Positions 10,139 to 11,411 of a stretch of DNA of 64,000 bases are shown piece after piece (position 1 is the first letter of the stretch; each line of letters begins with the position of its first letter). Source of the stretch: Pontibacter vulgaris. GTDB lineage: Bacteria > Bacteroidota > Bacteroidia > Cytophagales > Hymenobacteraceae. The notes below the pieces were generated by a model. That model was not told the origin of the DNA, did no database searches, and was given only the letters and a program-made list of their open reading frames with translations. Location of the stretch: contig NZ_JAJVDH010000002.1 of the NCBI RefSeq assembly GCF_022758145.1, forward strand, positions 62,001 through 126,000. Reading direction: 5' to 3'. The translations under genes were made by a program, and so were the position numbers.

Positions 10139-10481
10139 ATACTGTTTACGTGCCTTTGTGTGGGGTAATGCCTATAACTATACCAATTGATGCGAGATAT
10201 GTTTAACAGGCTCTTACCGGAATGCCAGCTATGATTATCGGATAAATAAAAAGCGCAGCTTCAGATATTCATCTCCTTATAACAACTGAAGAAAAAGCAG
10301 CCGGCAAAAACGTTCTGCAAACTAAATTAACTTCAGCAATAGTGGTTAGGTGGGATATCGTGGCGTGAATACGTATCAGTTGGTATTTAGCAAAGGCCGT
10401 TGTTGGCTAGCCAGTTTGCTCTTTACACCCGAAATACCTTAGCAAAAGTTGTTAAAGCAGTATATGAAATAGTATAAAATG

Positions 10482-10724
10482 AGAAAAGCCCCACCAAAAT
10501 GGTCGGGGCCTTCTCTCACCTTAAACAAACTAAACTAATCTAAACTTTAACTAACCTTATCTTTGTTATTTTAACTTCTGTTTTGTTGAATATAGCATTA
10601 TCCAGTTTTAATTTTAGACAGAACTGCTATAATAGAAATAGAGAGACATTTTTTTTAAAAATTGTTTGCTTTACAAAAAAAATGTATTGATATTAGCTTA
10701 CCACAATAAGCGCCCTCTTAATTC
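10482..10724 (-). ncRNA. Candidate small RNA with promoter and intrinsic terminator
   Basis: On the minus strand a canonical -7 box TACTTTTG (10737-10730) is followed by about 240 nt without a usable ORF and then a GC-rich hairpin (10509-10488; arms GGCCCC-type and GGGGC with an ATTTT loop) directly followed by TTTTCTC, an intrinsic terminator. The only reading frame inside is an 11-codon peptide (MSLYFYYSSSV). The AT-rich block upstream of the -7 box resembles the block upstream of the tRNA-Phe promoter (both contain a GTTCCTC word next to a run of A/T), which argues for a stable-RNA gene. Class is not recognised; a leader attenuator for the exporter gene 350 bp downstream is the main alternative. 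Confidence 0.5.
10488..10509 (-). terminator. Intrinsic terminator of the candidate small RNA
   Basis: GC-rich stem (GCCCC against GGGGC plus an inner ACC/GGT pairing with one bulged base), loop AAAAT, followed on the minus strand by TTTTCTCATTTT. Flanking GAGAA and TTCTC can lengthen the stem. Confidence 0.7.
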
Positions 10725-10729
10725 GGGTG

Positions 10730-10737
10730 CAAAAGTA
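10730..10737 (-). promoter_or_regulatory. Bacteroidota -7 promoter box (TACTTTTG)
   Basis: Matches TAnnTTTG exactly and is followed by GCACCCG, the same context as at the tRNA-Phe promoter (TACTTTTGCATACC). No TTG is present 19 bp upstream, so the -33 element is weak or absent. Confidence 0.55.
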
Positions 10738-11225
10738 CGTTTTTGATTTCTTATAAAAAAGAAGTTCCTCAAAAGATTTTTTAAAATTTTTATATTTCCC
10801 CGTCTCCTGCTTCTAAACCTGGTTTTATAGGTTTTAATTTTACCTGTTCTTAATTAGCCTCTCTACATAAATTTATACTTAAGCTAAACTATACTTGAGT
10901 ATAATATGCTTCCTTATTAGGTTTTAATAATCCGTTGCAGGCCAAACGGGATGGTTCGTGCTGTTATATATCAGAATTGTTGCTAAACCATCTGCCAGTA
11001 AAACTGTTATTTGTATATTTTATGGCTAAACATCTAACCAGAGGAATAATTAAAATAAAGGCTGGGAAAACGTTTATTTGATAAATTTATTTACTTTGCT
11101 GTCTGTTATTAAGGGAGTTATAGTTGTAAACTTCCGAATTGCTCCTTTTTAAGGGTAGAGCATAACAAAAATATATCAAATAAAGTATAGCTATTAAAAA
11201 ATATAACTAATAGCAGAATAAGTAG

Positions 11226-11411
11226 ATGTCTAAACTTTACAAGCCTTTTTTACTTACAGTAGGTGTACTCGTTTTAGTACTGCTGATGTGCTTTGCCCGT
11301 CCTGGTGCATTTCATGCGGGCCATATGCTTACAGTTGGTCTGTTATACATTATAGGTATGGCGCTGGGTCTGATCAGCGATATGGCAGCTGAAACAGGTA
11401 ACCGTAGTTAA
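11226..11411 (+). CDS. Small two-helix membrane protein, unknown function
   Basis: 61 residues with two hydrophobic segments (about 7-24 and 34-51) separated by RPGAFHAGH, ending AAETGNRS. Not recognised. It sits alone between long AT-rich regions. Coding character is supported by a GC content typical of genes here, in contrast with the flanks. Confidence 0.55.
   Translation: MSKLYKPFLLTVGVLVLVLLMCFARPGAFHAGHMLTVGLLYIIGMALGLISDMAAETGNRS

Follow-up and report, generated by a model that had tools for sequence, protein, structure and literature searches.

Features of the locus

The window, which is the whole 64,000-nucleotide stretch of Pontibacter vulgaris DNA analyzed here, contains an apparent small RNA gene in the gap between an ABC exporter gene and a 61-codon ORF at position 11226. 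Pontibacter species are soil and marine bacteria. Read on the minus strand from 10737 to 10477, the locus comprises a -7 box of the sigma-ABfr type, about 250 nt in which no ORF is conserved, and a GC-rich hairpin resembling a terminator (Table 1). The width of the gap is explained in part by the decayed remnant of another gene. This remnant is on the opposite strand and has stops, so the RNA was kept while the adjoining gene decayed.

Table 1. Features of the RNA locus (window positions) and of the sites with copies of the dispersed motif
Feature	Position or sites	Strand	Basis or remark
RNA gene as aligned, 253 nt	10477..10729	-	alignment of 46 homologues; exact 5' end presumed
-7 box TACTTTTGC	10729-10737	-	TANTTTTGC in 46/46 homologues
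Conserved region upstream of the -7 box, with A-rich block, -33 element of CTTT type and A-rich element in the spacer	10738..10789	-	column consensus, 46 loci
Conserved 5' domain CACCCGAATTAAGAGGGCGCTTATTGTGGTAAGCTAATAT	10690..10729	-	8/40 columns invariant; able to pair with 3' core
Variable AT-rich middle	10565..10689	-	1/171 alignment columns invariant
Near-invariant C-free 3' domain with UUAG repeats AAAGATAAGGTTAGTTAAAGTTTAGATTAGTTTAGTTTGTTTAA	10521..10564	-	35/57 columns invariant (columns 212-268)
Core GTTTGTTTAAGGTGAGAG, complement of dispersed motif CTCTCACCTTAAACAAAC	10513..10530	-	motif searches, duplex prediction
Intrinsic-terminator-like hairpin and tail	10477..10520	-	ten hairpin pairs formed in 99.8% of cells (46 species)
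Decayed C-terminal gene remnant	10335-10469	+	tblastn E 8e-15, 60% identity, with stops; family intact beside RNA in congeners
ABC exporter gene	10138-8282	-	ABC_tran domain
Motif before short ORF	L105, L107, L120, L133, L140, L197, L201, L203, L208, L219, L221-L227, L230, L232, L236		20 sites
Sense motif in leader of barrel gene	L188, L190, L194, L196, L198, L199, L204, L205, L218, L228, L229, L235		
Sense copy TTTGTTTAAGGTGAG between stop codon and terminator-like hairpin, HlyD-type genes of many species	L109, L143, L189, L195, L210, L211, L212, L213, L231, L233		

The RNA is conserved in the genus

We found homologues of the RNA in 46 of 50 Pontibacter genomes by BLAST, with best E-values of 2.1e-20 or lower. 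Because of this conservation we regard the locus as a gene rather than a chance arrangement of signals, and it is very probably an independent small RNA gene of Pontibacter, about 250 nt long. Its sequence has what is found in independent intergenic sRNA genes: a promoter of its own, an intrinsic terminator and no conserved ORF. The original prediction of a probable new small RNA gene is thus well supported at the level of sequence by the promoter box, the hairpin, the conservation across the genus and the lack of any Rfam family at gathering score. The family appears real, conserved and of an ordinary kind, and it is apparently new. A family that is kept so widely in the genus and has no Rfam family at threshold merits annotation even if the mechanism proposed below fails.

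To the left of the RNA, the most common neighbor (31 of 46 loci) is an ATP-grasp gene that resembles glutathione synthetase and shares the strand of the RNA (Pfam assignment of one member). The four congeners in which no RNA was found (G008, G030, G034 and G036) have the ATP-grasp gene with no RNA after it. In a single-gene tree of the neighboring ATP-grasp protein, the RNA-less species required two changes, a result that is not decisive.

We also searched with a model built on the 3' 91 columns of the alignment. The search covered the 50 Pontibacter genomes and 150 genomes from five other genera of the family; it recovered the 46 homologues and gave nothing convincing among the 150. A pattern made from the 3' core was run against 84,980 species, each represented by one genome; it matched 35 records, all of them Pontibacter. 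There was no match to the 3'-core pattern in viral contigs, and no BLAST match to the RNA in a plasmid collection.

Five additional matches to the model (L075-L079; E 3e-4 to 0.01) were rejected as homologues. By eye, these look like gene ends or coding sequence before hairpins, and they are without the TANTTTTGC box; L079 has TATTTTTG 235 nt upstream. Separately, G022 contains a partial duplicate of the 3' end of the RNA with its hairpin (L080), approximately 4.2 kb from the RNA gene of that genome.

Promoter, domains and fold of the RNA

The perfect -7 box that had been predicted on the minus strand is present, and TANTTTTGC precedes the conserved 5' end at a like place in every homologue, 170-217 nt upstream of the 3' motif. 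On its own, the box in the window means little, because TANNTTTGC occurs there 27 times versus 20.5 expected, and 9 of 100 shuffles had a count as high. The consensus of the upstream region over the 46 loci is aAAAa..tTt......ttt.cTTt....ta..aAA.caaA....TAaTTTTG. No dyad was supported in this upstream region (10738-10789); 228 of 1000 shuffles were as good. The flanking AT block had been likened to the one upstream of the tRNA-Phe promoter. This likeness is loose: GAGGAACTT followed by T-rich sequence occurs in both, but the distances from the -7 box differ. We also observed that an A-rich element, aAA.caaA, is conserved in the spacer of the RNA promoter, between -33 and -7.

Alignment of the gap in relatives, proposed as a check on the prediction, revealed conservation reaching beyond the terminator. 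In all 46 homologues the promoter could be aligned, together with 40 nt at the start and 90 nt at the end of the RNA, and the middle varies (the coordinates of one homologue, L039, were trimmed by hand before alignment). Homologues are 231-279 nt long. The predicted ORF-free stretch of about 240 nt also held up among relatives: an ATG ORF of at least 15 codons is present in just 19 of the 46, and none is conserved.

Upstream of the hairpin the RNA has almost no C and contains UUAG repeats, and species differ there by 5-nt indels. All 46 homologues share three invariant TTAG units; a fourth is present or absent according to an indel. The hairpin itself, GAGAGAAGGCCCCGACCATTTTGGTGGGGCTTTTCTC, is at 10517-10481 on the minus strand, and 12 of the 35 columns in the hairpin part of the alignment are invariant. 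The predicted GC-rich hairpin is there and is conserved in 46 species; its tail, CTTTTCTCATTTT, has no clean T run. The U tract is imperfect, and the hairpin was absent from the list produced by a simple terminator scan of the window.

The 253-nt strand folds better than shuffled sequences (z = -2.67; 3 of 200 were as good). The 5' end, CACC..UUGAGAGAGAC, is able to pair with GUUUGUUUUAAGGUG, with 96.9-99.5% of cells paired, and sliding by 1-3 columns drops whole-structure pairing to 38-63%. At least four pairs between the 5' end and the 3' core formed in 31 of 46 single-sequence folds. Among the 46 homologues there were no compensatory changes in the helices between the 5' and 3' ends, and shuffles pair equally well. 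It is possible, based on these predicted folds, that there is a helix between the 5' end and the 3' core. Part of the core lies inside the terminator stem and might pair with the 5' end of the RNA, which counts against the mechanism proposed below.

Exporter leader and known RNA classes

The exporter gene is on the same strand as the RNA and about 340 nt downstream of it in the window, and the RNA had been suggested to be a leader controlling this gene. The neighborhood in other species argues strongly against such a role. The exporter directly follows at only 3 of the 46 loci. At 38 of them, the first gene encountered is on the opposite strand (ORFs as listed; the other eight include two spurious listed ORFs), and in the window the decayed opposite-strand gene lies between the RNA and the exporter. 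Given the opposite-strand neighbors, we conclude that the RNA is not the leader of the exporter, and a role as its 5' leader or attenuator is extremely improbable. In an Rfam scan of the window, tRNA alone reached gathering score, and at the locus and at seven homologous loci there were sub-threshold matches only. A covariance search for known classes had been proposed as a check; it gave no Rfam family over threshold at the locus and no 6S family even at E 10. We rejected rli61 and BTnc049, both of which were below threshold at the locus. BTnc049 (RF04179, a Bacteroides sRNA) was the best Bacteroidota family in a permissive scan, with a match of 23.6 bits across the hairpin and the 3' part that is rich in UUAG. 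This is far under the gathering score of 81.9, and the E-value of 0.2 is at chance level.

It is quite unlikely that the RNA is a diverged housekeeping 6S RNA of Pontibacter, with paired ends and bound by RNA polymerase. The RNA does share with 6S (RF00013) and 6S-Flavo (RF01685) a single full-length copy per genome and possible pairing of the ends, here between the 5' end and the 3' core. In addition, searches with these two models found none of seven Pontibacter genomes over the cut-off, so the 6S RNA of the genus is unaccounted for by them. Among 14 named control genomes, 6S was over the cut-off in four and 6S-Flavo in none; thus, the 6S-Flavo search has no positive control. (A sub-threshold 6S-Flavo match of 23.7 bits lies elsewhere in G013.) However, neither 6S model nor any other Rfam 6S family matches the locus, the pairing of the ends is without compensatory change, and the most conserved part of the RNA is a C-free strand, unlike a long rod with a bubble. 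The RNA is also restricted to one genus as far as searched, being undetected in the 150 genomes of sister genera and missing in 4 of 50 congeners.

A dispersed motif is complementary to the core of the RNA

We found that a 16-nt stretch beside the terminator is complementary, with at most one mismatch, to a motif that is dispersed in Pontibacter genomes. BLAST searches of the genus with the RNA gave, apart from its own gene, many short matches to the 3' domain, and most of the 40 such places that we inspected (20 + 20) were at gene edges. A 60-mer from the 3' domain had 43 non-self matches (E≤10) in G000 (the genome of the window), G024 and G027. As classified by script, the complement was on the coding strand no more than 60 nt upstream of the start of an ORF of at least 60 codons in 16 of the 43, and a sense copy was so placed in one. 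At E≤0.01 there were 10 non-self matches versus approximately 0.03 expected for three genomes.

Start regions are rich in A and C, which raises a worry about composition. We therefore searched for the exact 15-mer CTCACCTTAAACAAA with its reversal as a control. There were 67 matches in the 50 genomes, 65 of them outside the RNA gene, and none to the reversed control. The 15-mer was present in 30 of the 46 RNA-bearing genomes (absent from 16) and in none of the four RNA-less genomes. With up to one mismatch, the 16-mer was found 168 times in the 46 RNA-bearing genomes; four of these are the RNA gene itself and 164 are non-self, and 39 of the 46 genomes have a non-self copy. There was one copy in the four RNA-less congeners and there were 13 in the 150 genomes of other genera; the reversed control gave 7 in 200. 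Seven of the 13 copies in other genera are at one conserved coding site, which by its appearance we take to be recF, three are inside other long ORFs, and three are intergenic, one of them just before a likely start. The co-occurrence of the motif with the RNA is not independent evidence, because the RNA-bearing species share ancestry.

The fit between the motif and the RNA is not exact. The core has four U (UUUGUUUUAAGG) in 42 of 46 species and three U in G000 and G022, and the dispersed motif fits three. Among the non-self copies, the four-A form was found 4 times versus 65 for the three-A form. Pairing with the four-U core thus requires a one-base bulge, so the motif is not adapted to the RNA; selection for pairing with the RNA should have yielded the four-A form. 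The bulged duplex is predicted to keep at least 12 contiguous pairs.

Contexts of the motif copies

We inspected 61 of the 65 non-self exact 15-mer sites (one of the 61 was merged with an identical context for classification by script). The numbers of susC leaders (20), barrel leaders (12) and gene ends (16) given here were counted by eye. The script classes mislabel some sites; for example, L193, L207 and L212 are sense copies after a stop, and at L115, L119, L202 and L206 the ORF named is short and spurious.

At 20 of the 61 sites the motif immediately precedes a short ORF (15-31 codons), whose ATG comes 21-23 nt after the motif begins. The distance from the motif to the start of a susC-like gene is 324-893 nt at these sites (here susC-like means that the N-terminus resembles that of L158, which has CarbopepD_reg_2 and Plug domains). 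Cysteine is encoded in 17 of the 20 short ORFs, often as HC or CC. It is possible, judging from their sequence and placement, that these ORFs encode leader peptides, perhaps as part of an attenuator. Two other complement sites precede peptidase genes, one for a subtilase (L187) and one for an M28 peptidase (L216). A 13-base core of the motif in G000 directly abuts the start of a susC-like gene (L158, a Plug-domain receptor), and one is likewise at the start of a gene for a Vps10/BNR protein (L161).

Sense copies are found in two other settings. At twelve of the 61 sites the sense copy is in the 5' leader of an outer-membrane-barrel gene, whose listed start follows 67-157 nt later (one such gene, L198, was checked with Pfam). 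Sixteen are sense copies between a stop codon and a hairpin. Ten of these are at HlyD-type genes (one checked, L189), and the other six are at genes of a family without a Pfam match (one checked, L113). The remaining 11 sites are in mixed contexts. By eye, several of the copies in barrel leaders have a -7-like box just upstream.

Among the places found by BLAST, orthologous genes in several species have a complement ahead of their start; by sequence appearance, we take these genes to be TldD-like and SNF-symporter-like. Complements before hairpins recur after two types of gene, presumably NhaC-like and TetR-like on the same grounds. At five places in several species (L095, L097, L098, L099 and L101), long gapped complements of the 3' domain are found after stops and beside hairpins. 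These are possible sponges, as far as can be told from their placement.

A possible role in repression of surface-protein translation

The sequences show the anatomy of the gene, its conservation, the complementarity to the motif, the position of complements at starts and the concentration of the motif in RNA-bearing genomes. We propose that the RNA would be transcribed leftwards from the sigma-ABfr-type promoter, end at the intrinsic terminator, and act in trans by base-pairing. The pairing part would be its 3' domain, chiefly the stretch UUUGUUU(U)AAGGUGAGAG next to the terminator, and the partner would be the 5' UTR immediately before the start codon in mRNAs for surface and secreted proteins; this pairing would block initiation of translation. 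The main candidate targets are the short leader ORFs before the genes for susC-like TonB-dependent receptors, and then a susC-like gene itself and the peptidase genes. We infer that the gene is transcribed, that pairing takes place in the cell and that its effect is repression; a partner protein, if there is one, is likewise inferred. As the best joint explanation, an RNA gene together with a trans-acting base-pairing mechanism has slightly less than an even chance of being right. The specific proposal of a trans-acting sRNA that represses surface-protein translation is moderately supported, and we hold it tentatively, at somewhat short of even.

Predicted duplexes between the RNA and 23 motif-bearing start regions of its own species had energies of -22 to -29 kcal/mol versus means of -13 to -18 for shuffled RNAs; these 23 sites were picked by the motif, and at 7 of them an equally low score was reached by one or more of 100 shuffled RNAs. 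Complementary 9-10-mers were not enriched in the start regions of a 464-kb sample. Complementary 12-mers in the same sample were weakly enriched (3 versus 0.36; 30 of 1000 shuffles reached this count). For 352 start regions, duplex energies were within the spread of the shuffled sequences. We also compared 30 susC-like loci. The complements in their start regions were 5-11 nt in 13 loci from RNA-less congeners and 6-11 nt in 17 from RNA-bearing species, and were thus generally no longer where the RNA is present. A susC search in the four RNA-less and five RNA-bearing species gave no clear orthologue.

The sense copies of the motif cannot be targets, because the RNA cannot bind a sequence of the same sense. 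Together with the unmatched U count, they lead to two other readings: either the RNA belongs to a network of RNAs that share a seed, or the motif is independent of the RNA. According to the first, the RNA would be the free-standing hub of a Pontibacter network in which the 16-nt sequence is present in sense in the sRNA, in the 5' leaders of barrel mRNAs and in the 3' UTRs of HlyD-type genes, and as its complement at the starts of the leader ORFs of susC-like genes. Export genes, porins and nutrient receptors would then tune each other by mutual base-pairing, a parallel to the FopS sRNAs of independent origin. This is conceivable, and we consider it unlikely. A little less likely is the second reading, that the 16-mer is an element in its own right (a protein-binding RNA site or UTR module) that has spread in both orientations, the RNA carrying one diverged copy next to its terminator and acting in some other way. 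The existence of both sense and complement copies fits such an element, as do the three-U form elsewhere versus the four-U form in 42 of 46 RNAs and the sense copies at HlyD-type genes, which like the copy in the RNA stand just before a hairpin. Against it, the 16-mer is concentrated in RNA-bearing genomes, and near the starts of ORFs of at least 60 codons complement outnumbers sense by 16 to 1.

It is also possible, with a lower probability again, that the RNA works through a protein: the single-stranded UUAG array would bind an RRM-1 protein of the RbpA/RbpB type and titrate it or form a complex with it. The three invariant TTAG units are consistent with such binding. However, no RbpB motif in letters was seen in PMC11697453, and 'UUAG' does not occur in its main text. 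We return to trans-acting repression as the preferred reading. If its pairing is confirmed, then sRNA control of susC-type receptors near the start codon would be recurrent in the phylum, beyond Bacteroides. The RNA comes with concrete candidate targets and a short core that can be tested.

Comparison with sRNAs of other Bacteroidota

The FopS family and GibS of Bacteroides thetaiotaomicron are described as sRNAs with a Rho-independent terminator, FopS having sigma-ABfr promoters (PMC11697453, PMC7366714). In the description of FopS, a shared single-stranded seed at the 5' end pairs near the start codon of susC mRNA; there are 14 paralogous genes, and one FopS is derived from a 3' UTR (PMC11697453). 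Like these RNAs as described, the Pontibacter RNA is a Bacteroidota RNA with a sigma-ABfr-type promoter, a terminator and candidate pairing near the starts of susC-related genes. Unlike FopS, it is a single gene, and its candidate seed is beside the terminator in the 3' domain. Compared by description, the traits of FopS (single-stranded 5' seed, R1 sequence and family of paralogues) were not found in it, and no Rfam match links it to FopS or GibS.

Rfp18 of Flavobacterium psychrophilum is described as a genus-conserved sRNA with peptidases among its predicted targets, a strong predicted fold, and predicted pairing through a stem-loop (PMC9723704). By that description, the Pontibacter RNA differs from Rfp18 in having a C-free 3' strand. 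It resembles Rfp18 in being a genus-conserved Bacteroidota RNA with peptidase genes among its candidate targets. The Bacteroidota sRNAs described in PMC11697453, PMC7366714 and PMC9723704 are from gut Bacteroides and flavobacteria, and the Pontibacter RNA adds another genus to these. A further similarity to the described FopS RNAs is in the 3' UTRs: one FopS is derived from such a region, and sense copies of the Pontibacter motif are also in 3' UTRs.
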